NCBI GenBank assembly: GCA_027604705.1
Contig: JADHYV010000003.1
Coordinates: 911,326 to 975,325 of the forward strand
Length of the DNA: 64,000 nt
Direction: 5' to 3'
Source: Allomyces arbusculus
Lineage: Eukaryota; Blastocladiomycota; Blastocladiomycetes; Blastocladiales; Blastocladiaceae
The notes under the pieces were generated by a model, which saw nothing but the letters and a program-made list of their open reading frames with translations, was not told where the DNA came from and made no database searches. Numbering within the stretch: position 1 is the first letter of the stretch; each line of letters starts with the position of its first letter. The position numbers and the translations under genes were made by a program. Of the stretch, positions 8,189-41,926 are shown in pieces.

Positions 8189-10190
8189 ATGTCGAAACCC
8201 GTCGTCTCGTATTTCTACGACCGTATGCACCGACCGCCCATTTGGACCAACTCGACCACCATCGCGACCCCGCGCGGCCGCGTCCAGTCGGCGGCTGGTC
8301 GTCATGCTGCGAGCTCGTCCCGCGCACGCTCCATACCAAGTCTCCGCCATTCCTGACCCCGCCGCGCACCCCCAATCACCCGAAAATCTAGCCGACGTCG
8401 GCAACTACCACTATGCTCCGGGCCACCCGATGAAGCCGCACCGCATTCGCATGACGCACTCGCTCATCATGAACTACGGGCTCTACAAGAACATGCAGAT
8501 CTACGTACGCTATGCGCGCCACGCGCCTGCGCTGCTGCTGGAGCGTCCGTCGACTGACGCGACCCGACCGGCCGCTGGTAGCGCCCGAAACCGGCGACGA
8601 AAGAGGAAATCAAGCGGTTCCATGCCGACGAGTACATTGATTTTCTCTACCGCGTCACGCCGGATAACATGAAGACGTATGCCAAGCAGGCGGCGAAGTG
8701 TACGTGTTGGAACCCATGGAGCGTGGTTGGCGGGCGTGCATTTGGCTGACCGACGTTGTGCACGCCAATTTCTAGTCAACGTCGGCGACGACTGCCCAGT
8801 CTTCGACGGCCTCTTCGACTACTGCTCGCTGTCGACGGGCGGGTCGCTCGGTACGCCGCCCTCCTACCCCGCATCCCCCACCCTCCCGACACCCCCGCGA
8901 CCAACCGATCCCTTGCAACAGAGGGCGCCGCGCGCCTGAACCTCGGCCGGTGCGACATAGCCGTCAACTGGGCGGGCGGTCTGCACCACGCCAAGAAATC
9001 CGAGGCCTCGGGCTTTTGCTACGTGAACGACATTGTCTTGGGCATTCTCGAACTGTTGCGGTACCACAAGCGCGTGCTGTACATCGACATTGACGTACAC
9101 CACGGCGACGGCGTGGAAGAAGCGTTTTATACGACCGATCGCGTCATGACCGTCTCGTTTCACAAGTTTGGCGAGTTTTTCCCGGGCACGGGCGACTTGC
9201 GCGTACGGTCCTGCTCATTTTTTTTTCTTTTCGGTGCGTGTTTGGGGTGCTGACGGTTTGCGTGCCACCTGGCTAGGACATTGGCGCGTCGGCGGGCAAA
9301 TACTACGCGCTCAACTTCCCGCTGCGCGACGGCATTGACGACGCGACCTACCGGTCGGTATTTGAGCCAGTCATCCAGTCGGTCGTCGACTGGTACCGGC
9401 CGGAAGTGATTGTCCTGCAGTGCGGCGCCGACTCGCTCGCGGGCGACCGGTTGGGCCGGTTCAACCTGAGCATGCAGGGTCACGGCCAGTGTGTAGCCTT
9501 TGTCAAGAAACTCGGCTTGCCCGTGATGTTGTTGGGCGGCGGCGGGTACACGATCCGCAACGTGTGCCGGACGTGGACGCACGAGACGGCGGTCGCGTTA
9601 GGGGTGCAGTTGGATAAGAGTACGTTTGGGTGCTGGTCGGGGAAGAAGTCGAGCCGAATCCTGACTCCCGGCGCGCCGCACGACCGCGTAGACTTGCCGT
9701 ACTGCGACTACTACGAGTACTTCGGCCCGGAGTACACGCTCGACGTGCCGGCGAGCAACATGGACAACTTCAACACGCCGCAATACCTGAACAACGTCAA
9801 GTACGTCCCCAACCCCTCTCTCCCGCTTCCCGCTCGCTCTTTTCTTCAACCATCCTGACCACCGCCATGCGCCGTTTTTGTAGAGCCCGCATCTACGAGA
9901 ACCTGCGCCACCTGCAACACGCGCCGTCCGTACAAATGCAACCTGTCCCCTACGACGCTGACCGCGAAGATCCCGCGCGCGCCGCTGCAGACAGTGCCGA
10001 CCCGGACGTGCGGGTGCCGCAGGCCGTGCGTGACGAAATGCGCGTGCATGACCAGGAAATGGCCGACGACGCGGTGAATCACGCGGGAGTGGCCGGGCGT
10101 GTTTACGATACGAGTTTCAAGGGCGACGAGGACGGGATGGACGTGGACGAAGGGGCAAGGGAACCGGCGGCGGTGGGGGACGCGCCGTGA
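8189..10190 (+). CDS. Class I histone deacetylase (Rpd3/HDAC1 type)
   Basis: Seven exons (8189-8222, 8392-8504, 8582-8699, 8776-8850, 8922-9202, 9277-9800, 9884-10190) encode 483 aa. The enzyme removes acetyl groups from histone lysines using Zn2+. Diagnostic class I segments are present in order: [40 protein letters not shown], catalytic His pair in GGLHHAKK, zinc ligands in [12 protein letters not shown], zinc Asp in [12 protein letters not shown], and the transition-state Tyr in GGGGYTIRN. The C-terminal extension after HAPSVQMQP is acidic and charged, ending without a recognisable motif. The first intron (169 nt) is long for this window. Likely nuclear, in Sin3/Rpd3- or NuRD-type complexes, by homology. 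Confidence 0.97.
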
Positions 10191-12137: not shown

Positions 12138-12700
12138 TCACAGAATGGCATCATCTGTCATGATACAACTTTCCCGGACAAGGCGGTCGCGTACTGCAGC
12201 ACGAACTGGGCTTGGGTCAAAGAGGTCCCGCTCGTCCGCGCCCACTTTGACGCCGAGCTCTCTCAAACGCTCGGCGATGGGAAGAAACCCAACGACGCGA
12301 GTAATATCTGGCGAGCGATGCTGTCCACAAACAGAACCAGAACATGGAGAGTCGGCGCGAGTTGGTGGAGAAGACGCGGATGAACCGCAGCGAGCCAGTC
12401 GAAATGCGCGGTCATGAGATGCGGGAATGGCCGTGCGAGCAGCGTGTCAAAGGCGGAATGGGGTGCTGTCACAACGAGCGTGAGTTTGCGCAATCGCGCA
12501 CGCGGAACTTGTGCCAGCAAGCGCGCCTTGATGCTGTATTTACCGCGACTACTTGCAACAATCGCCAGCTCTTCGAGATTTTGCTGCAACTGCAAAAAGG
12601 TCGCGAGGTTCTCGTGACTCCGATTGAAGACTTCAACAGAGAGGCCGATGGCAGATCGATGGCGACGCTCCCAGTTCAAGTCGCAGTCACACAGTTGTCA
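12138..12700 (-). pseudogene. Frameshifted partial copy of F-box-like family protein
   Basis: The minus strand encodes a clear but incomplete homologue of the intact protein at 15192-13960. Matching segments are VEVFNRSHENLATFLQLQQN (intact: VEVLNRSHEYLVSFLQSQQN), ARLLAQVPRARL, and ADERDLFDPSPVRAA. The first two lie in one frame and the last in another, with the switch near 12315. Only by changing frame there does the text align through FLP to ADERDLF. The N-terminal half, including the F-box, is missing. The copy is in tandem with the intact gene on the same strand. A single sequencing indel could mimic the frameshift but not the missing N-terminus. Confidence 0.8.
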
Positions 12701-13959: not shown

Positions 13960-15192
13960 TTAAGCCCCCTGCTCAGATGGGCGAAAATAGAAAACGTGTG
14001 TTTGCGTCGATGTACTCGCACTATGAATTTCCACGGTCGAACTTTCCTTGAGAATGCGGTCGCATGCTGCTGCGCGAACTGGACTGGGGTCAAAGAGGTC
14101 GCGCTCATCAGCACACACCATGACACGCAGCTCCTTCAATTTCACAGCGACAGGTAGAAACGCGAGCACGCGAGAGATATCTTGGGAGGCCACACGGTCC
14201 AAGAACACAACTAGAACGTGAAGAGTCGGTGCAAGATGACAAAGCAAGTGTGGGTGGGTTGATGCAAACCAGTCCAGACTGGCAGATGTGAGATGCGGGA
14301 ATGGCAACGCCAGAAGCCCATCAAAGGCAGAATTGGGTGCTGTCACGCCCAGCACGAGGTTGTGCAACCGTGTGCGCGGAACTTGAGCCAGCAGGCGCGC
14401 CTTGAGGTTGTGATGGCGAGAACAGGTAGCATTAATCATCAACTCTTCGAGATTCTGCTGGGACTGCAAAAACGAGACGAGATACTCGTGGCTGCGGTTG
14501 AGGACCTCCACAACAAGGAAAAAATGGCGCAGCGTATGTGGCGGTACAGCAAGGAAGAATCGTGCCCACGTCTTCATGCTGCGAGTGGAGTGATATGATA
14601 GGGTCACATTCAGAGAGACAAGTCGTGGTGAAATAATCTGGACAGAGGGCGGGATACCACGTAGCGCCAATTGAGGACCCATTGTACAGCATCGGAACGG
14701 GAGCAGGGAGCGATAAGGAACCATAGCAAGGTTTGGGCCATCCACACAGGTTGGAAAATCAAGCAACAAGTATGCCCGGCCATCCATATAGGCCATCAGC
14801 GTGCACGCTTGAGGCACAAGAACAGCTGGTGCAAACCGTTTACCAAATGCAACTGGGCCAGTACCATGCGGGCGTCCCAGGTCGAGCTGTGTGGGATTGA
14901 TGATTTGGACCATCATGTTGGAAGGTGTGCCATTGCAACCCATGGTTGCCACCCTTAATGTTGCAAACCGGGTGGCAAGGCGGATGCATGCATCGATGGC
15001 AGGAGCGTAGAGACGAGGCGAGGCGCGGGCAAGCTGGACGAGCACGCCATCGTCAGCAGCATCAAGGAGGCTGGCAATGCGGGTTTGGAGCTCAAAAGGA
15101 AGTAATTCGAGCATCGTGTCTGTGGAGCTGGCAATCAACAACTGCTTGAACGCGTAATTTGCTGCTGCGGCGGGGTCTTGATGCGGCTGCAA
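13960..15192 (-). CDS. F-box-like / LRR-like protein, multigene-family member
   Basis: A single uninterrupted 410-aa frame, unusual here because almost every other gene is intron-rich. Residues 27-66 (LELLPFELQTRIASLLD then LVQLARASPRLYAPAI) fit an F-box-like helix set. The remainder shows repeating leucine-rich stretches such as LPFPHLTSASLDWFAS and HLAPTLHVLVVFLD, as in F-box proteins that present substrates to SCF ubiquitin ligases. Two broken paralogues lie in this window (12138-12700 and about 45690-46247). GC content is lower than in the housekeeping genes. Start could also be the internal Met27. The SCF role is inference from the fold. Confidence 0.7.
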   Translation of the reverse strand: MQPHQDPAAAANYAFKQLLIASSTDTMLELLPFELQTRIASLLDAADDGVLVQLARASPRLYAPAIDACIRLATRFATLRVATMGCNGTPSNMMVQIINPTQLDLGRPHGTGPVAFGKRFAPAVLVPQACTLMAYMDGRAYLLLDFPTCVDGPNLAMVPYRSLLPFRCCTMGPQLALRGIPPSVQIISPRLVSLNVTLSYHSTRSMKTWARFFLAVPPHTLRHFFLVVEVLNRSHEYLVSFLQSQQNLEELMINATCSRHHNLKARLLAQVPRTRLHNLVLGVTAPNSAFDGLLALPFPHLTSASLDWFASTHPHLLCHLAPTLHVLVVFLDRVASQDISRVLAFLPVAVKLKELRVMVCADERDLFDPSPVRAAACDRILKESSTVEIHSASTSTQTHVFYFRPSEQGA

Positions 15193-15897
15193 ACACTCGT
15201 GCAGCGAAATGGATGTTGAGAAAAAAGTGGAGAGAAGGGCGTTTCAGCCGAGTACCGCCAGTTTTTGAACGACACGAAATGGCCCGTCGCCTCGAAAATC
15301 GCACGTGCCAGAGCGTGTCAACAAAGCTAAATTTTAAAATCTTCGAATGCCGTAGCAAGCGGCGTAGGTCGGAGTGGCTAGTTACTACGCAGTCCATATT
15401 GACGTCTACGACCTGGATTCAAACCATACCCCGGGCGTGTCTGTGACCTTGGCCTGGCTCACCACTGGGGCTGCTTGATGTTTTGGATGGGAGATGCGCT
15501 GTCTCAACCCACCCCTTTAGAACAACAGTGAGCGACAGTGAGCGAAGCACATCACGATGGCCTCGCACTCCCATCAACCAGTTCCTGTGTGCGCGTTTCG
15601 TTCGGACTGATGTCAAGTCTGATTCACCCCGCTTGCACGACGTGGACGCAGGCCGAGCTTGCAGCGCCCTGACGAGATCCTCAAAACAGACATATCCTTC
15701 CACAGCTGCTCCGTCGACATGCAAGCGCTCTGACATGCAAGCACTCGCCGCACACATGACCCCAATGTCTATGCATGACGAAGGTCGACTGACGCTCAAT
15801 GCCGTGCCGCTGTCACAATCGTCGCAACCACGACCATCACTGACGCCAACGCGACCGTCTCGGCGACCGTCTCCGCGTCGCGTGCCAAGATCGCCGC
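15193..15897. other. Gap between F-box-like gene and FAS remnant
   Basis: About 700 nt with an A/T-richer part (15300-15400) and no convincing gene. The 159-codon plus frame at 15483 shows no family features. Confidence 0.4.
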
Positions 15898-18800
15898 TTG
15901 CCGGCCACTTTCAAGGCGCTCATGGCCGATTTCCACCGCCAATACCTCACGACCTCGAATAAGGTGCACATGGCCACGCGCGACCCCGTCGGTTTTCCGA
16001 CCGAGACGGGCGACGACGACACGAGCCCGCAGGTGCTCGCCTTAAACTACGCCGCTGTCGAAACGCTCACCCGGTTCCTGCCCGCCGGTGAGGCCGCTGA
16101 CGCGCTCGCCAAACTCACCAAGCCCATAACGCCCGCGTTCTTCTGCACGCCGCTGCAGGGGCAAAAGCCTGCGGCGGCACTCTCTGTCTTTGCCGTGTTT
16201 GGCGGCCAGGACACTCGACCGCGTATCTGGACAAATCGCGCGAAAGCGAGGCCGTTTATGGCACGCCGATCCGCGCGCTCGTGGATGCGGTCGATGCGCA
16301 CTTGGCCAAGCTGCTGCAGTCGAGACAAGCCAAAGTGTTCACGAACGGCCGAGCGTGCGCAACTGGCTCGACCGGCCAGCGCGTGCGCCCGACGCAGATT
16401 ATTTGGTTGCCGCGCTTGTGTCGATGCCGCTGATTGCGCTCACACAGTTCGTGTGGTACCTGGTCATGGTCACTTCCCTTAGTTCGACGTTTGCCGACGC
16501 GCGGAAACGGTGGTTTATTGGCTCTTTTTGAATCACGTTCGACCGTGCTCTCTCGCTCGTCGTGTCGAGCTGTGATGCTAACCACTGGTGATGCGACTCC
16601 AATTTTTAGCTGCCTTGGGTCACCCGCAGGGCATGATTCCCGCAGTGGCCCTCGCCGCGTCCGACTCGGAATCGGCATTCCTCGCTAACACGCTGCAGGT
16701 ATTGACGCTGCTCTTCCATTTTGGCACGCAAGCGACGCTCGCCTTCCCGCCGACGTCGGTCCCGCCGCGCGTGACCGCTGACTTCGAAGAAATCGGCGAG
16801 GGCATCCTCTCCGCCACTGCAGTCGACCGCGTGCGCGACCTCGTGCAGGACAAGGCGTTGGGCGTCACGTTCCTCGCCAAGGACTTGCCGTGCCCGTGTT
16901 CGCCACGTCGGGCAAGGACCTGCGGATGTTGGACGGTGCCGATCTCGTCGTGTTCCTCGCCGACGAGATATGTACGCGCGCGGTCGACTGGGAATCGCGA
17001 CAGTGTTCAAGCCGACGACTCACTTTGTCGATTTCGGCCCCAGCGGCGCGTCGAGTGTCGTCGATCTGATTCATGGCAACAAGGAAGGGTCCGGCGCACA
17101 AATCATTCTCGCGTTGGTTTTTAACAACGTTTCGGGTATGCTCGGGCGGCTGGCGCTGCTTGACGCGAGCCGCGACATGATCCCATACGCGCTGCACTGG
17201 GCCAAGGAACACCGCCCGCAGCTTGTCGAGGTCGGCGACGTCGTGCACCTCGACACCAAGTTCACGCGACAGATTGGGCGCCCGCCCGTCATGGTCGCGG
17301 GTATGACGCCGACCACTGTCTCGGCGCAGATTGTGTCAGCCACGCTCAATGCGGGTTACCATGCGGAACTCGCTGGCGGCGGCCACTTCACCGAGGCCAT
17401 GCTGCGGGACAAGGTCAAGGATAACATGACGCAGGTCGTTCCGGGCAACGCGATCACGATCAACATGAAGTTTATGAACCCGCGGGAGTGGGCGTTCCAG
17501 TACCCGCTCGTCCAGGCGCTGCGCCGCGAAGGGTTTCCGGTCGGGGGTTTGTGTCGCCGCCGGTGTCCCGCCGTTCGAGGCTAGCGAGATTCTCACGTCG
17601 CTCGCGGCGTGCAGGGATCAAGCACGTTGCGTTCAAGCCCGGTTAGGCCGACGCGATCATGCAGGTCGTGTGCATTGACGAGGCGCACCTGAACATGCCG
17701 ATCCTGTAGCAGTGGGCCGGCGGCCGCGCCGGTGGGCACCGCTTGTTCGAGAACATGCACGCGCTGTTGCTCGAGCACTACGCAGCGATTCGCTGGCGCA
17801 AGAACATTGAGCTCGTGGCTGGGTCCGGGCTCGGTGGGGTCCAGGACACGCTGCCGGACCTGATGGGCGACTGGGTGCAGGCCTATGCGCGGCCCGCGAT
17901 GCCGTTTGACGCGGTCCTGTTTGGCTCGCGCATGCTCTTCGCCAAGGAGGCGCAGACGTCGGATGCCGCCAAGGACCTGATCGTGTCGTGCCCGGGAATC
18001 AACGACGAGACCGGCTGGGAAAATGCTTATGTCAAGCCGACGGGTGGCATTCCACGCGGCGTCACCATGTACGCGTTGCATGCAACTACGGGCACGATCA
18101 AGCAGCTCTACAAGGAGCAAGCCCTAGCAGTGGGTCATGTCGTGTGTTCGAGTGTCCGTCTCGGGGGACTACAACCTGATCCACACGGCGCCGCTGCTTA
18201 CTGACTTAGCGGGCCCCGACGCGATCACGCACGGCATGTGGACGTCGGCGCTCACGCGTCGCTGGGCCAAGCTCTATGCGGCCGAGAACCAGCCGCAGCG
18301 TGTGGTCTTGTTTGCCGTCGACTCTGTCGACGTGCCTGCCCAGCATGGAGCTCACGACGACGCTGCGCCACAACGACATGCAAAAACGGCCACAAGATCA
18401 TTGAAGTGACCGGCTCGACTGACCGCGCGATCGTCAAGGGCACCGCGCACGTTGTGCGGGCCCTGTCGTGCTTTGTCTTCACGGGCTAAGGGTCGCAGGA
18501 AGTCGGCATGAGCATGGACCTGACGAGGCATCGCCCGTCACACGCGAGGTTTGGGACTGCGCCAACAGCCGGTTCAAGTTCGAGTACAGATTCTCCACAT
18601 TGGAGATTGTGTGGTCGAACCCCAGGTCCATGAGGATACATTGTGGTGGGCCGCGCGGGCGCAACATTCACGCCAATTTCAGCAGCATGATCTACGACGC
18701 CATCGATCCAGAGCCGGGCAAGGTTGCGACCAAGTCGCACTTCCCCACGATTGGCGAGCACACTGGGTCCTGCACGTTCACGGCGCCACAGGGCTGCTGT

Positions 18801-18990
18801 ACGTGATGCAGTTCACGCAGCTGGCATTGACGCTCGTGGAAAAGGCCGCGTTTGCCGGCATGGAAGCGCACGGTCTGGTACCGCCGGACTGCCCGTTCGT
18901 GGGCCTCAGCGTACGGTGCACACTATCTGGCGCGTGCTGCAGCCGGCCCGATTCGTGATGCACTGACGCGTGGGCCGCACCAGACTTCGC
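15898..18990 (+). pseudogene. Decayed fatty acid synthase beta subunit (FAS1)
   Basis: Fragments of fungal FAS beta appear in the correct order but in changing frames. The acetyltransferase domain (FAVFGGQ near 16200; RNWLDRPARAPDADYL near 16360; AALGHPQGMIPAVALAASDS at 16610) comes first. The enoyl reductase follows (HFVDFGPSGASS; GRPPVMVAGMTPTTVSA; AELAGGG; LVAGSGLGG; MPFDAVLFGSRM). Next is part of the dehydratase (SGDYNLIHT; ITHGMWTSA), then the malonyl/palmitoyl transferase start ([22 protein letters not shown]). In-frame stops interrupt conserved blocks at 17644 (TAG), 17707 (TAG) and 18487 (TAA, where FTGQGSQE is expected). The acetyltransferase nucleophile Ser of GHSQG is Pro (codon 16624-16626) and the transferase GHSLGE motif is unreadable. 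At about 3.1 kb it is half the usual 6 kb length. Confidence 0.92.
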
Positions 18991-19173
18991 CCACACTTCT
19001 TCGCTCCCTCGCTCCCAATTTTCAGATTTGGCTTTGCGCTGGTTTGTTGAGCATCATATATTGTTACTGCGTCCCTCTGATCGTCCTGGCTGTCGCCTAT
19101 AACTGGTCAGGCAAAAAGGCACAGCGTGAGCAGGCAGCACGGTTGGACCCAGTCGCTTCATTTCTACTCGCGA

Positions 19174-19194
19174 CCCCCCCCCCCCCCCCCCCCC
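19174..19194. repeat. C21 homopolymer
   Basis: An uninterrupted run of 21 C on the plus strand, shortly before an alternating TA tract at about 19228-19239, between the FAS remnant and the CDT1 pseudo-copy. Confidence 0.9.
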
Positions 19195-19252
19195 AAAGAG
19201 CATGACACCGCAAAGCCGGCCAGACAGTATATATATATAGTTCGGACAGGTA

Positions 19253-20033
19253 TCAAGGTTCAGTCTTGTGAGTTTTGCCTGAGGTAATCAGAATGCGCCG
19301 GAGTTTTCTGACGTGGCGATCATCCATCGCCGCTGTCTGCTGCTGCGGCATGCCTATCGTCGGCTTGACCGTGTCACTCCCCGACAGCACGACGCCCTCG
19401 GCAGGCCCCACTGCCGCCGACCCAACTGGTGCCGCCACCGCCGCCGTCGACGACGAGCCGGCCTCGCCACCCTCACTGGTCCCGGTATTCGCAAACTTAG
19501 CCGCGAGCGCCTGCTGCGCCTGCGCGATCATCAGCTTGACCGTCGCCTGGGCGGCCGGCGCGATCCGCACAAACTTCTTGACGCCAATCTCTACGACGTT
19601 GCACCAGGCCGGCACTGTTTTGGTGAGCAAATGCTGGTACTTGGTCGCCATCTGCAACGACATGGGCGCATGCGCCGTTGCGGGATATCATAGGCGAGGA
19701 ATTCCGGTTTCGAGACGACCTCCCGCTCCTCTTCCGAAACGTCCTCGTCGTCGTCCTCGTCGCGAGGGGCGGTGGTGATCGATGGGCGCGAGGTGGCCGA
19801 GGTCGGACACGACGTGGCAATATTCAGGGTAGGGCGCGGTGTGACGTCGGTGGTCGTCGTCGCAGGGGCTGCGAGGGCCGCAAGGGCTGCGAGGGAAGCA
19901 AGGGCTGCAGGGCGGGGGTGTTGGCGGACGTGAGCTGAGCGGGGGATGATCGGCGCTTCTTGGACTCGAGGGCTCGATTGATGATGGCGAGCGCAAGCGC
20001 GCTCCGCGTGCCTCGGTTGGCCGGGGTCGCCAT
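19253..20033 (-). pseudogene. Internally deleted copy of CDT1
   Basis: On the minus strand this stretch matches the intact CDT1 gene at 39368-41926 in three blocks. They are a Thr/Pro-rich part (ATTTTDVTPRP, SCPTSATSRPS), the acidic block EEEREVVSKPEFLAYDIPQRR, and the C-terminal winged helix (MSLQMATKYQHLLTKTVPAW, NVVEIGVKKFVRIAPAAQA). The geminin-binding winged helix between blocks 1 and 2 is gone. About 630 nt are missing between blocks 2 and 3, where the frame also changes (junction near 19665-19690). The C-terminus diverges after the Ala-rich tail. A short frame from the ATG at 20033 could still be translated. The copy is 19 kb from its parent and in opposite orientation. Confidence 0.9.
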
Positions 20034-20041
20034 GGCTGCGA

Positions 20042-20059
20042 GGGGGGGGGGGGGGGGGG
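20042..20059. repeat. G18 homopolymer
   Basis: Eighteen consecutive G immediately upstream (on the minus strand) of the first ATG of the CDT1 pseudo-copy. Confidence 0.9.
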
Positions 20060-20374
20060 CGGGGGCTGATGCTGGCAGGGGTATTTCGTGGCGAGTAGCT
20101 GGCAGCGGCGAGGAGCGGCAAGGAGGAAGTGGTTTGCTTGGTTTGGCCGATGTTGGCGTGGACGTGCAGCTGAAGAGGGGTTTTCTGAAACCCCCAAACC
20201 ACCGATTGCACTCGGTGCCGTGCAAGGGCAAGAAGAATGAAACCTATGTAAATCAGCATCCACTGCCTCTTCGAGCAAGCGTGGTATGGGTTGGACACAA
20301 CGGTAGGCCCGTATACACTGTCCCTGATCTCCATTTTTTTAAAGCGCGACTTGCTGCAACCTTTTCCACCAATC

Positions 20375-21204
20375 ATGTCCACCTCAACCAACGCCGCATT
20401 CCACCCGTCCGCGGCCCCTGTACCGAGCATGTCGCCAGGCCCAATACCAACCGGCGCGCCCAGCTCGAGCCCACCCACGTCCTCGTCGCCAACTCCAGCG
20501 CCCACATCGCGATTCCATGCGCTTCACCGCGCGCGCGGCGCCGGCTCCCTCTCCACCACCGCGCACCGCGACCGGACACGTCAACGCGCGCGAGACCAAG
20601 CGCGTGCGGCTCGTGCGGCATTACAGGACCGCGCGCGCGAAGCCGCGACGGGGACGTCGTTGGCGCAGCAAGCGGTGAGTATGTTCTTGTCCGTCCGCAC
20701 GATCGTGCGCGAGACGCGATGGCGCAGGGGGGGAACTGATACGTGTCGCTTGTTGCGATGTAGGCATTCCGCTCAGTCGTCGATGCGTACTGGGACGCGT
20801 TTGCTGCCGACGAGCACGCGTTCTTGTCACTGGACGACTTGGCCGACCTCGAGGCCGAATTCCGCGCGGAACTCGACACCGGCGAGGAGATCGAGATTGA
20901 CGACAGAAGAAGCCGCAGTTGGGGAATTCCATCGTCCTCCCCCGCCGCCGCGTCGAGCGAGCCGCTCCCGTGCCTATTGTGCGATGCGCGCGCAATGACG
21001 CAGGTGGGCGGAGACCTCGTGTGCCGCGCGTGCCATTCTCACGTGTCCGCTGGGATCTCGTACGACACGGCGCGCAATGTGCTGGATCAGGCGGAGATGG
21101 CGCACGGGATGGCGTGTCCGGGCACGTTGGTCCGTGGGTACCACCCAGAGGAGGGGTTCGTCGCGCAGTGTATGACGTGTGGGGCCGGGGAAGTCTTGTT
21201 TTGA
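20375..21204 (+). CDS. RPA-interacting protein (RPAIN/RIP-alpha family)
   Basis: Exons 20375-20674 and 20764-21204 give 246 aa; the intron has a GTGAGT donor. The family carries replication protein A into the nucleus. The middle segment AFRSVVDAYWDAF followed by LDDLADLEAEFRAEL corresponds to the EEW and EELAVLEEIQQEL region of the human protein. The C-terminal zinc-binding domain is complete: CLLC, VCRAC, an H/CPGTL segment, then CMTC near the end, matching the C-X2-C layout of RPAIN. The N-terminal 70 residues are Pro/Ser/Arg-rich and unconserved. Its stop lies 120 nt from the stop of the convergent membrane-protein gene. Confidence 0.82.
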
Positions 21205-21324: not shown

Positions 21325-22615
21325 TCAAAACACGCCGACGTGATCGGACGACGTGTGCAGCTCACCCATCGACGACGAATTGGTCGTGCCCGTTGCCGGC
21401 ACGGCCGTCGTCCCACGCAACCCGCTCGGCGTCTGCGTCTGCTGTTTTTCTCCGACGCCGCCGTGAATATGAATCACGGATAATGGCACGTCGTGCAAGT
21501 GCGACGGCCCGCCACCGGCGTGCATGTGCGACGCGATCGGTGCCGCATATGATGCCTTGACTTTCTTCTTCAGCATCCTGCTCAAAGTAAGAAGGAAGTA
21601 ACAGAAGAACCGCATGCGAATCGACTCGGCAATGTAGACACTGACTGTGGGCAGCGGCGCGGTCAGGATGAGAAAAATGGTGGAGGTGAGAGGGAGAGAA
21701 ACGTACCCCATTGCGGGTCAAAGTCGGCCGCTTGCACAATCGCATTGGCCACAATCATGAGCACGCATTCGAGGCCGAGCACCCACCGCACGTTGCCAAG
21801 CAATTCGTGAAAGTTTTTGCGCAGCTCGTGGCCCGATTTGCCGCCAATGGATCGCAGGACGGCAATAAACCCGAGCGAAATACCGAGGTTTACGAGCGAG
21901 TCGTACACCGACCAGGCTAACCGGGTGGACAAGTTGCGTGAGAGCGTATTCGAAGAGATAAGGGTGGTCTGATGCGGGGGCGGTGGTGGACGCACCAGAA
22001 AAGAGCACGTCGACGAGCGGCAACTGCTCTTCGCCGTTGGCGCCATACGTGATATACGTGTAGGCGAACATGGCGTTGTTGGCTGTGCACAACAGGATGC
22101 TGATACCCGTCAGGGCGAGCAATGCCTTGGTGAGCGTAGGCATTTGGATCATCCCGACCGAGTGGAATCTGGTCGTGAGAGGCGACAGTAAGACCCGGAA
22201 GCTGCAGCGTATCCTCAACTGTTTCCCAATATCGTACCGCGCCATGTTGAGCCCCACAAACCCGCACCCGCCGACCCACGCGAACAGTACCCCAAGTGCC
22301 TGGAGTAGTGCCGAATCCTTGGTGTGCGCGTCGCCCGCAAACCCAATGGCCAAGTCGAGAATGTGCGCGACGGCAATGATACCGAGCAACACATAGTAAA
22401 TGGACCTGCCGGCGCGGCGGTAAAGCGTCACGGCCGTGGTCAAGGTGCTCACGTCAATGGCGACGCAAATGCCGAGGCCAAACGAGATGGCCGAAAACTT
22501 GAAGACGGGCTATCGACGCGGTGACGGGACGGCGGACGTGATCAGATACGAATATCGGACCGGCACGACGGTGCTGAGCATGGCATTGCGCGCGGACCTC
22601 GGATGCGTCGGCCAT
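21325..22615 (-). CDS. Seven-transmembrane protein with cytoplasmic His-rich tail
   Basis: Five exons (22615-22598, 22509-22238, 22168-21996, 21916-21707, 21644-21325) yield 330 aa with no stop. Seven hydrophobic segments can be read: FSAISFGLGICVAI, IYYVLLGIIAVAHILDLAIGF, ALGVLFAWVGGCGFVGL, ALLALTGISILLCTANNAMFAY, YDSLVNLGISLGFIAVL, WVLGLECVLMIVANAIVQA, and IRMRFFCYFLLTL. A basic KKK follows the last helix, then a tail of about 85 residues rich in His, Gly, Thr and Ser. The topology suits a G-protein-coupled-receptor-like or similar heptahelical protein, but I do not recognise a defined family. The first exon is six codons (MADASE), chosen because its 88-nt intron fits phase and length; the start is the weakest point. 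Confidence 0.7.
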
Positions 22616-28432: not shown

Positions 28433-31400
28433 TCACCTCGGCTCGCACGCGAGCGACCGCTCGTACGCATCGTCGTCCGACAGCGGCACGTAGTCGCGCA
28501 CGTAGGCTTGGATTTCCGGCACCGGCGTCAGGTTGTACCCTTCTGATTGCAGGTACTACGTTGACCCACAACTTCAGTCTCACACTCTCTGCAAATTGAT
28601 ACAAGCGCCTCGCACGCACCTGGAATTTCTGAATCAAGTCGGCCATGACCTGGTACCGCTGGAAGTTGACGAGCTTCCCATCAATCGACCGCGCGAGGCT
28701 GCGGTCGAGGTAGTACAAGTCGCGCTCGAGAATCGCCGGGAACGGCACGGCCGGCGGCTGTGCGTCGCGCATGAGTGCGCGCAGCGACTTGTAGTTGATG
28801 TCGGGCGAGCAGTTGGCGACGAGGTCCTGCAGCATGCGCTTCGATTTGGTCGGAATGAGCTAGCATCGCAACAAAGTGGTCAGTGTCTTGTCGCAACGAT
28901 CCCCGTCCAATTGGGTGCGTGCAAGCGCGTACCGATTTGGTCCGCTCCAACCGCCACACGGCACTCGACTCGAGCGCGGCCATGATTTCCGAGACGCCGT
29001 TAAAGTTGTTGAGCTTGAGCAATTCGTCGGCGAGCGTAATGAACCGCTCAAAGACGACGGCGCGCGTCTTGGTTTCGCGCGTCATCAAAATCTCGGACCG
29101 CACCCACTGCATGACGTGGTTAAACCACCGCGTCATGGCCAAGACCGTCGCTGCCGTCTCCTCCTTGTTCTTGCGCATCCAGTTGATGCCAATCAGCTCG
29201 AGCGGCTACCATGGGAAAAGCAATGGGTCAGCAGGACACAACCGACAACCAAACGAGAAGAGCGAGAAAGAAGACGCACCGACATGGCCCGGAACAACTC
29301 CGACTCGACGAGCGTCAACTGCCGCGCGACCTCGACCATACTCAAATCCAGGAACCGGATCCCCTTGCCCTCTTTCCTCGACCCGCCGCGCAACCACGCC
29401 GTCGACTTGGACAGCGTCCCGACCGCGGCCAGCGTCGCGCTTGACGACGGATTACTCCCAAGCCCCGCGGCCGACCCGATACTGCCCACGGGCAGCGGGT
29501 CGCGCAGGTACTTTGGCAAGACGGGTGGCGGTGGAGCCGGGTGCGTGCGCAAGACGGCGTCGCCGAGCGCTGTGGTCGTGGTCGTGACGAGCCCAGAGAA
29601 CTCGGAGTTGAGTTTCGACTTGACGAGGCACTCGATTTGCGGCAGGATTTCAGGTTGGTCCTCGGGAACTATGTGGTCGCGGAGGAACGACATGACGCGT
29701 TGCAGGAACTCGCTATGGGTTGCAGTCGTGTCAGCGGAATGGAATGGGGCGGCGGGATTGACGGCGCAAAAAGAGGAGACGGACCCTTGAAAGTCGCACC
29801 AGTACTTGGTCATCCAGTCGCTCAAGACGTTGTAGATCCTAGAAAACGTTTGGCACACGGGTCAGATGGGCGCCGACGCGACGAGAAATACCGACACAAA
29901 AGACAATGTCGAACCTCGAGACAATTTTGGTTTTCCTCGGCCGGTAGAGCGCCTGAATCGCCGCAAGCACCTCCTCGGGTGTCATGAACTCGCGGTACGT
30001 GAGCAGGAACGTATTGCGCAGCTGGTAGTCTGTTTCAAGCGAGCCACCGTCAATCCCTTACTCACCTTACCCCCCCCCCCCCCCCAATCCAGACCGCACG
30101 TACCGATCGGATGACCCACAATCAACCTCTCCACCAATTTCTCCGGCACCGCGGCGCGAATCTGCCTCTGCCCGCCATCCGCCTCGGCGGCCCCACCATT
30201 CGCAAACAAAATCAGACCCTGCGACTCGTCGCGCGCATCCATGTCGGCCTGCCCACGACTCGCCTCCTGCATGACTTCGTGCAGGACATGCTCGTGCAAA
30301 CCGACGAGACTTTGCCGCATATCGGCCAGTTCGCGCTCGAGGATGGAATTGCGCGCCTCGGCACTGCGTAACTTGTCGACGAGTTCGAGCCGCGTCGATT
30401 CGAGGTCGAAGGTCGCGTCGGTGTTGGGCGGCGTCACCATGGTTTCCTTGTCGGACATGGTCGCAGCGACGACCGCGCCCTGCGCGCGGCGGAGGGTGCG
30501 TGGCGGGGTCGTGACTGCGGCGACGGCCGCGGAAGAAGACGAACCGGCTATGGCCGCGGCTGCGGCGGCCGCGCGACTTGATGGACGGTCGGGGGACCAC
30601 GGCGACGTCGACCGCGACGCTGGGCGGGACGTTGACGTTCCCACTGCCGCACTCGCACGCTGCTCATCGAGCATTTCCGCCACCGGCTTGGTCCCCAGGA
30701 CGACCGCCGTATCGACCGAAACCGACCGCATCGACATTTGCCGATGCATGTCGTGAATCGTCTGCTGCGAAGTGCGGGCCACTTCGCGCAGTTCGGTCCG
30801 GTGCTGTTCGGTCAATTGCGCGAGCTGCGTCTGGAATGTGGATTCCTTGAGCGCCAAGTCGCGCTGCAGCGTGTGCAGCTGGTGCCGCTGCTTGGCGATC
30901 AGTTGCATCAGGTAGTCGTTGCGCTCGCGGTAGAATTGCAGTTCTTGCATGGCGTTGAGCTGCGCGAGGTCGGATGAGTCGCCGAGGAGCTACGAATGGG
31001 TGAAATTGGTGAGACCCCGCTCATCATGACGTGAACGGACGCGGTCGGTACCTCGCGATGGTGCTCGACTGTCTGCTGCAACGTCCATTTTTCCTCGACG
31101 AGCTGCGCAATCGTCGCGTGACAGTGCGCCTGGAATCGCGTCTGGCCCGCGACCAAGTGCACAATGATATCGCGCAACTGGTCGACGTCGTTTGGCAGTG
31201 CCGTGCGAAACGCCGCGGCCGTTGGCGCCGTCGTGGTCGTCGCGCCGTCGCCCGTTCGTCGTCGCGAGTTGCTCGGAAGCCGACCTGCTGGATGTGCACC
31301 GTCAGCAACCACCTCCGTTCATGATAATCCGGTCACGCCAAGTTGCGTACCGGGCACGCCGTCAAACAAACTCGCCCACTCGGCACTCTCAGGCGCGAGA

Positions 31401-39367: not shown

Positions 39368-41926
39368 ATGTCGGCGCCCAACCCGCCCAAGCCGCAGCAA
39401 ACGCTGCTCTCCAGCTACCTGAACGTCGTCAAGCGCACGACGCGGTCTGCCGCCAAGGCCAACGCCAAGGCCAACGCCGACACTTCCACCACGGCACCTA
39501 CCGCCCAGCACTCGCCGCCCAACTCGCCCAAGGACACGCGCGCCGCCAAACGCATGCGGCTCGGCCCGCAGAACCTGCCCACCTCAGAACCCGATGTGGC
39601 CCCCGTGCGATCGTCGGCGCGGCTCGCGGCGCGCGCGCAGAACTTGTCGGTCGTGACCGAACAGAAGCGCGCGCGCCGCACGCCCATCAAGCTGGCGTTA
39701 CCGCACGAACCTGCCATGGTGGCCTCGCCGATCAAGTTGGCGCTGCCAGAAGATGAGCCCGTGGTGGAGAAGGACGTGCCCGTGCGCTCGGCCACGCCAG
39801 AGGCTCCAGCAACCCCCGCCAAGAAGCAGGGCACGCCGGCGACAAATCGGGTCGAGCGCGCGCTGCAGATCCTCGACAGTCCGTCGAAGCCCACGTCGGC
39901 CCGCGGTACCGCAACGCCGCCCGTCTCGGCGGGGCTCATGTCGCCGCGCGCGGCCGCAGCGGCGGGCGTCTTGTCGCCAACGGCCGCGTCGCCGTCCAAG
40001 CCCAAGGGTCCGTCGTGTTTATGGTCAGCGCTGATTTGGGATTCGTTCTTGCACTGACCCCACCCTGATTCTGCTCTGATAGCCTCGCTCAAAGACCGGT
40101 TCGCGCGGCTCGCTGAGCGCGCGCCACGCCGCAACCTGATCACGGCCTTCGAGTCGGCGCTGCCTGACAAGCCCACCGTCCCGCGCACGCCCACGTCCGC
40201 TGCCGGCACCCCGACGGTCCCCGCGTCTCCCGCGACGACCACCACGGATCTCACGTCGCGTCCGACCTCGGCCACCTCGCGCCCTACCAGTATCAGCACG
40301 GCCCCGACGCCGCGCCCTCCCCGCCCCATCCCCACCTCTCCCACGATCCTCGACCCGTACCGCCTGCCGCATCTCGAGGATATCAACCCGTCATCGACGC
40401 CGTTGCCCACGGGTTCCGCGACGCGCCGCCCGCGCCTTGTTCCCGCGGGCCAGCCGCACGAGATCGCGCCGACGCAGCGCGTGCCGCTGTCGGCGGCCAT
40501 GACGCACCTGGACCAGGTCTTTAACGGGCTCGAATTCTCGGTCGCCTACCAGCGCGGCCGCGGGGAGCTGTGCACGTTCCAGTCGGTGCAGCGCAACGTC
40601 GAGAACGCGTCGTCTCGCGCGTTTACGCTCGGTCACGTTGCGCAGATTCGCGGCGTTTTTCCCGAGGCGTACGACTTGCAGGCGGTGAAAGCGGATTGGC
40701 ACGGGAACAAGGTGGAGACGGTCGCGTTTGATTTCAATGTGGCGTGGGCGCGCAAACGGCGCGTTCGCGACGACGAGGACGACGACGACGACGACGACGG
40801 CGAGGACGTTTCGGGAGAGGAGCGGGAGGTCGTCTCGAAACCGGAGTTCCTCGCCATCGATATCCCGCAACGGCGCATCGAGTTCCGCGCGCGCCTGATC
40901 GCGCTCGTCGAGCGCGCGCACCGCGCCTTCCTCGCCGCGCGCGACTTGCGCGACTGGGAACCGACCGACGCGCTGCGGCCGTGGCACCCGGAGTTTGATT
41001 TGAATACGGTCGCGATCCCGGTCATGGCTTTGCCGACGTTGCGGCCGCTGACGCCGCGCAAGCGCGCGCATTTACCGACGGCCGCGGCGGTGCGCGCGGC
41101 GAAAGCGAAAGTGGTCGCAATGGACTTGTCGGATTCGGACGAGAGTGGGGCCGAGTCGGGTCGCAGTTCGCCGACACCGAGTTCGCCGAAACGGCCGGGC
41201 GTGCAGCAGCGGTTTAGTAAGTTGTTGGAGCGCGTGCGCGCCAAGGAGGAACAGGTGAAGCGGGATGTCTTGTTGGGGATGTCGCCCGAGGAAGTCCGGG
41301 AGAAGACGATGTTGTCGCGGTTGCCGCTGATGGCGGAGACGGTGCAAATGTACGTTGTTCACTTTCCGCCCGCGGATCATTCGTTGGCGCCCGAGGAACT
41401 CACGGATTCGAATTCTTCGTCTAGCCAACTCGCGCAGCTTGGCAAGAACGTGGCGCCACTCGCGACGCTCGCGCAAAAGGTGGTCGACAGTTACCCGACG
41501 CCCATGTCGTTGCAGATGGCGACTGAGCATTTGCACTTGCTTGCCAAGACGGTGCCGGCGTGGTGCAATGTCGTGGAGATTGGCGTCAAAAAGTTTGTGC
41601 GGATCGTGCCGGCCGCCCAGGCGTCGGTCAAGCCGACGATCGCGCAGGCGCAACAGGCGCTCGCGGCCAAGTTTGCGGGTGCCGAGACGGACGAGGGTGG
41701 CGAGGCCGGCTCGTCGACGACGACGGCAGCGGCGGCACCGGTCGAGTCGGCGGCGGTGCAGGCCGTGGGGCCAGCGGCGCGCGGTGGCGGGGCGCCGGTC
41801 CCCACGCGGGCGTCGACTGCGGCGACGCGTGGCGGCGGCGGTGCGGCACTCCTCGGCGTGCGTGCACCATCGAAGGGTGGGCTCGCCGCGCGGCAGGCGC
41901 TGCTGCAGGCGGCGCGCAAAAAGTGA
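39368..41926 (+). CDS. CDT1: DNA replication licensing factor Cdt1
   Basis: Exons 39368-40016 and 40083-41926 encode 830 aa. Cdt1 loads the MCM2-7 helicase at origins. At the N-terminus, residues 11-18 (QTLLSSYL) form a PCNA-interaction box, expected to couple destruction in S phase to PCNA/CRL4. A disordered Ser/Pro/Thr-rich region contains several SP/TP sites. The central winged helix (HLDQVFNGLEFSVAYQ, CTFQSVQRNVENASSRAF, HVAQIRGVFPEAYDLQ) matches the geminin-binding domain. An acidic Asp-rich insertion follows, then the C-terminal MCM-binding winged helix (RLPLMAETVQMYVVHF to WCNVVEIGVKKFVRI). A Gly/Ala-rich tail ends the protein. A deleted copy lies at 19253-20033. Confidence 0.92.

Follow-up and report, generated by a model that had tools for sequence, protein, structure and literature searches.

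Fungal type I fatty acid synthase (FAS) beta subunits (FAS1) are represented by solved chains such as PDB 2uv8 chain G, 4v58 chain G and 7q5s chain B, and a single-chain (fused) FAS is described for Ustilago maydis (PMC7300031). The locus reported here lies within the terminal 64 kb of contig C3 of the Allomyces arbusculus assembly, a stretch referred to below as the window. It is a relic that we identify, with a probability of about 0.93, as a duplicated (non-processed) pseudogene of FAS beta whose intact gene is located on contig C12. Compared with fungal FAS1, the relic lacks the acetyltransferase serine, the malonyl/palmitoyl transferase (MPT) active site and everything after it, as well as about 0.3, 1.9 and 0.15 kb of internal sequence, and it is not a working member of the family; compared with single-chain FAS, it retains sequence of the beta part only. 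It shares with duplicated pseudogenes in general a retained intron, disabling lesions and an intact paralogue, whereas its dN/dS indicates a period of constraint before it died. Such a period is common for old duplicates.

An intact fused FAS gene on contig C12

The original prediction, made from the window alone, had proposed a search of the whole assembly for FAS genes. This was carried out over 25.9 Mb in 197 contigs by family and DNA search, and led to an intact fused gene. PF08354 (FAS1 helical family) has two matches in the assembly, the relic and the gene at C12:401464-413231, which starts with an ATG at 401464, ends with a stop at 413231 and contains 3894 codons with no internal stop. 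Its single intron is 83 nt long (GTACGT...TACTAAC...CTAG, with splice sites placed by eye), and the stop-to-stop open frame of exon 2 extends over 3607 codons. In the two pieces of exon 2 that were scanned against Pfam, beta-type families (PF16073 SAT, PF08354, FAS meander, FAS1 dehydratase region and its insertion, MaoC dehydratase, acyl transferase) are followed by alpha-type families (ACP, FAS_I_H, ketoacyl synthase, phosphopantetheinyl transferase); FAS_AT_central falls below the Pfam cut-off, and no Pfam family is named for ketoreductase in these two pieces. Exon 2 also aligns to solved fungal FAS beta chains and then to alpha chains, the part searched matching 4v58_G residues 265-2054 and similar ranges in the other beta chains. 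Ten motifs occur once each in the gene (GHSQG, GDYNPIH, GHSLGEY, GGKST, LYGESK, GACATA, FHGTGTKANDF, GHPKGAAAAW, GVDIE and KWAAKEA), and we take them to be the active sites of AT, DH, MPT, ACP, KR, KS and PPT. The gene is thus predicted to encode a complete-looking single-chain FAS. As one open frame with beta followed by alpha, it is like the single-chain FAS of U. maydis as described in PMC7300031. The FAS type and the introns point to a fungal genome; a search for 5.8S rRNA gave 0 matches.

Neither a third FAS copy nor a second alpha part was found among the best candidates scored in DNA searches with C12:400999-408499 and C12:408500-413999, which together cover the whole intact gene and which recovered only C12 itself and the relic on C3. 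A search with the ketoacyl-synthase C-terminal family PF02801 gave two matches, one in the C12 FAS and the other in a 340-codon frame on contig C16, where C16:65446-65763 represents a separate ketoacyl synthase.

Extent and structure of the relic

Homology to the intact gene (C12:401739-407253) is detectable on the + strand from window position 15774 to 18905, with a weak translated match from 15632. The relic had first been placed at 15898-18990; homology was confirmed, but it begins upstream of that interval, at about 15774, and ends at about 18905. The description of the locus as an FAS beta gene in ruins holds for the beta identity, although its one intact relative is a gene in which beta and alpha are fused, not a stand-alone FAS1.

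Four blastn blocks on the + strand, 78-86% identical to the intact gene and collinear with C12:401834-407247, make up the relic, and the tblastn matches are spread over all three + frames, in agreement with the ordered FAS beta blocks in changing frames of the original prediction. Block 1 (15846-16804; 78% identity to C12:401834-402807) includes the retained intron and is presumably the N-terminal/acetyltransferase region. Block 2 (16813-18056; 86% identity to C12:403107-404360) presumably covers the end of the acetyltransferase and the enoyl reductase region. Block 3 is short (18063-18154; 84% identity to C12:406244-406333), and block 4 (18156-18899; 83% identity to C12:406489-407247), which follows a deletion of about 155 bases, is taken to hold the end of the dehydratase and the start of the MPT domain; these domain names assume the FAS order as we know it. 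The three long blocks cannot be chance similarities (E of 1e-221 or lower), and the short block has an E of 1.5e-18. In Pfam scans of two pieces of the relic, PF08354 in block 2 was the sole match, and the other piece had none.

The relic amounts to 3.05 kb, compared with 5.41 kb for the corresponding part of the intact gene, which makes the predicted loss of about half the expected length a fair estimate; the whole intact gene spans 11.8 kb. Its 3' end falls just before the MPT active-site motif GHSLGEY. In comparisons with the intact gene, the neighbouring segments 15244-15640, 18900-19408 (two targets) and 19817-20400 never outscored the best of 50 shuffles. Neither an alpha half nor a 5' end of this copy was found near the relic or elsewhere in the assembly, so that the copy may never have been a complete second gene.

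Disabling lesions and retained intron

The three nonsense codons that had been predicted are all present in the ancestral frame of the + strand: a TAG at 17644-17646 (TCG in the intact gene, codon 801), a TAG at 17707-17709 (TTG, codon 822) and a TAA at 18487-18489 (CAA, codon 1763). The same is true of the predicted substitution of the acetyltransferase nucleophile in the GHSQG motif, where the codon at 16624-16626 (+ strand) specifies proline in the relic, but serine in the intact copy (codon 361) and in three solved fungal beta subunits. Lesions not listed in the original prediction are 15 small indels that shift the frame, three larger deletions and damage to the splice donor. About 0.3 kb is missing at the junction 16808-16809, between about 402811 and 403103 of C12, and 1.9 kb (about C12:404361-406243) at the junction 18056-18063, both on the + strand; the third deletion, of about 0.15 kb, is the one that precedes block 4. 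Downstream of 15846, there are 23 small exonic indels in a list transferred by hand, and three of them, near codons 141-146, may represent a single misaligned event. Eight of the 23 keep the frame, which is about the chance expectation.

The intron (16521-16609, + strand) occupies the parental position. Its donor reads GCTCTT instead of the GTACGT of the intact gene, while an acceptor TAG and a branch-point-like TGCTAAC are retained. Intron divergence between the two copies is 21 of 79 aligned sites (0.27), compared with 0.34 at synonymous sites. Because the parental intron is kept, the relic arose by DNA duplication and not as a retrocopy, and a processed pseudogene was rejected. Neither the continuous open frame nor the active sites of a functional fungal FAS beta are found in the relic, and its sequence supports no present biochemical role. 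With an intact homologue elsewhere, disabling lesions and the parental intron, it has three features that characterize a duplicated, non-processed pseudogene.

Divergence and selective history

Over 966 codons aligned between the relic and the intact gene, dS is 0.445 and dN 0.099, for a dN/dS of 0.22 (bootstrap 0.18-0.27); excluded from these counts are indel-broken codons, the region upstream of 15846 with its weak alignment and further indels and, for dN/dS, the three stop codons. Differences at first, second and third codon positions number 100, 99 and 254, at about 985 sites each, so that third positions differ 2.5 times as often as first or second ones. This pattern bears on the possibility that a partial duplication of the beta part was dead on arrival, never functional and drifting neutrally from the start. 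Such an origin would fit the finding of neither alpha half nor 5' end at the relic, yet we regard it as unlikely, both for the excess of third-position differences and for the results of simulations at the observed synonymous distance (three background ratios, 60 runs each). Copies simulated as dead on arrival reached a dN/dS of 0.34-0.58 and a mean of 10-12 stops, in contrast to the 0.22 and three stops of the relic. Since the observed dN/dS is lower than that of all these simulated copies, it is probable that constraint acted on the C3 copy for at least half of its existence, until it died. In the simulations, the dN/dS fits a relic branch constrained for about 50-65% of its length, and the three stops fit about 70-80%, two estimates that do not fully agree; for the dN/dS argument to hold, synonymous sites have to be near-neutral, both copies must evolve at equal rates and gene conversion must be absent.

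To place the amino acid changes, both copies were compared with an outgroup of three solved fungal beta chains at 473 codons from block 1 (exon 2 part) and block 2. Both copies have the same residue at 402 of these codons; the differences fall on the relic side in 40 cases and on the intact side in five, 24 are undecided, and two codons are stops in the relic. At the 247 sites that are invariant among the outgroups, the residue is kept by both copies at 156, lost by the relic alone at 28 (including two stops), lost by the intact copy alone at none, and kept by neither at 63. Almost all of the decidable protein change sits in the relic.

The scenario that we favor starts with a duplication at the DNA level, either of the fused FAS or only of its beta part, which would have placed a second copy on the present contig C3. 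This copy would have remained under protein-level constraint for about half the time since the split or longer, and it then lost its function, as its stops, frameshifts, deletions and missing catalytic residues attest. The C12 gene, judged from its sequence, would supply cytosolic fatty acid synthesis. An improbable extension of this scenario is that the relic is the remnant of a second, separately selected FAS or of a stand-alone beta-type protein that was later abandoned; such a second FAS may have worked for a long time alongside the fused one, for instance as a specialised synthase or a supplier of starter units. For the history of FAS duplication in fungi, the period of constraint that the copy probably went through is of minor interest.

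Other explanations for the relic

A copy acquired from another lineage, through hybridisation, introgression or a homeologous chromosome set, would also account for a long constrained history before death, and a constrained divergence from the resident gene at a dS of about 0.45 is what it would produce. We consider it less likely still than a copy dead on arrival, as gene order is not shared: among 443 stop-to-stop frames, each 90 aa or longer, in the 80 kb around the C12 gene, compared with the window at an E of 1e-5 or better, nothing beyond the FAS gene itself, at the relic, was in common. Moreover, DNA searches with positions 1-61499 of the window revealed, besides the FAS relic and the CDT1 relic described below, only a few gene-family paralogues and short repeats, and on this evidence a genome-wide second gene set is not indicated.

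Continued expression of the locus, whether of a truncated protein or of a non-coding (for example antisense) RNA that would act on the intact FAS, seems very unlikely. Stretches of 86% identity do remain, and the + frames reach 269 codons between stops (3607 in exon 2 of the intact gene), with up to 187 codons of one frame matching the gene. However, no parental start region was found, the splice donor is altered and the lesions are spread over the blocks.

The original prediction had left a choice between a dead paralogue of an intact copy kept elsewhere and the loss or replacement of cytosolic de novo fatty acid synthesis, in which the relic would be the remnant of the only FAS beta. The C3 copy is indeed beyond function, but the loss is highly improbable given a C12 gene that is open over its full length, has the motifs that were sought and carries on its own side only five of the 45 outgroup-decidable changes. 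If C12 were a contaminant, the loss would be revived; the intron that both copies share and their DNA identity of 78-86% speak against this. Because the same assembly carries the intact fused FAS, the relic is best understood as a duplicated pseudogene, as the first of the two options had it, and a unitary pseudogene, in which the only copy is lost, was rejected. The striking claim of a fungus without cytosolic fatty acid synthesis is replaced by a well-supported ordinary pseudogene, and a housekeeping gene that is broken in one window should not be equated with the loss of a pathway before the rest of the assembly has been searched. Sequencing or assembly error can be dismissed as the source of the stops and frameshifts, since, even if several of the lesions are one-base indels, the larger deletions, the 14-22% divergence and the losses of invariant residues are unlike read errors, and the same assembly has the C12 FAS open over 3607 codons and a P-type ATPase of the window over 918.

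Surroundings of the relic

A second relic lies 0.5 kb downstream of the FAS relic. It is a CDT1 pseudogene fragment on the - strand (19409-19816), consisting of three short pieces that are 86, 92 and 97% identical to the intact CDT1 gene of the window (40058-41926; Pfam PF08839 and PF16679), of which they match positions within 40252-41758. Differences at codon positions 1/2/3 are 13/10/18, 1/4/4 and 5/2/2 in the three pieces. Compared with the FAS relic, the third-position share yields p 0.14 for the longest piece and p 0.03 for all three, so that the codon-position pattern is flatter in the CDT1 relic, but by a weak contrast. This contrast is too weak to support a younger age and a different origin for the CDT1 relic, and the two relics may have arisen in one common event or separately. 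The CDT1 relic is flanked, at a distance of about 0.2 kb on each side, by a 21-base poly-C run (19174-19194) and an 18-base poly-G run (20042-20059), which are possible breakpoints or assembly-weak spots; homopolymer runs of 15-16 are also found at 30070, 43982 and 50004.

Several other sequences of the window have paralogues. The peptidase M24 family gene at 175-1603 has one on contig C38 (66%), and the gene at 8424-9590, presumably a histone deacetylase, has paralogous stretches on C3 itself (at about 426 kb), C11 and C21. Positions 12167-12638 and 14040-14512 are paralogous to each other, with 71% DNA identity, the latter lying within a stop-to-stop frame of 427 codons (13960-15243, - strand) that has no Pfam match. 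Finally, the gene at 21560-22517, membrane-like by eye, has a diverged paralogue at C8:530430-531463 (67-69% identity, with one 47-base piece at 87%).
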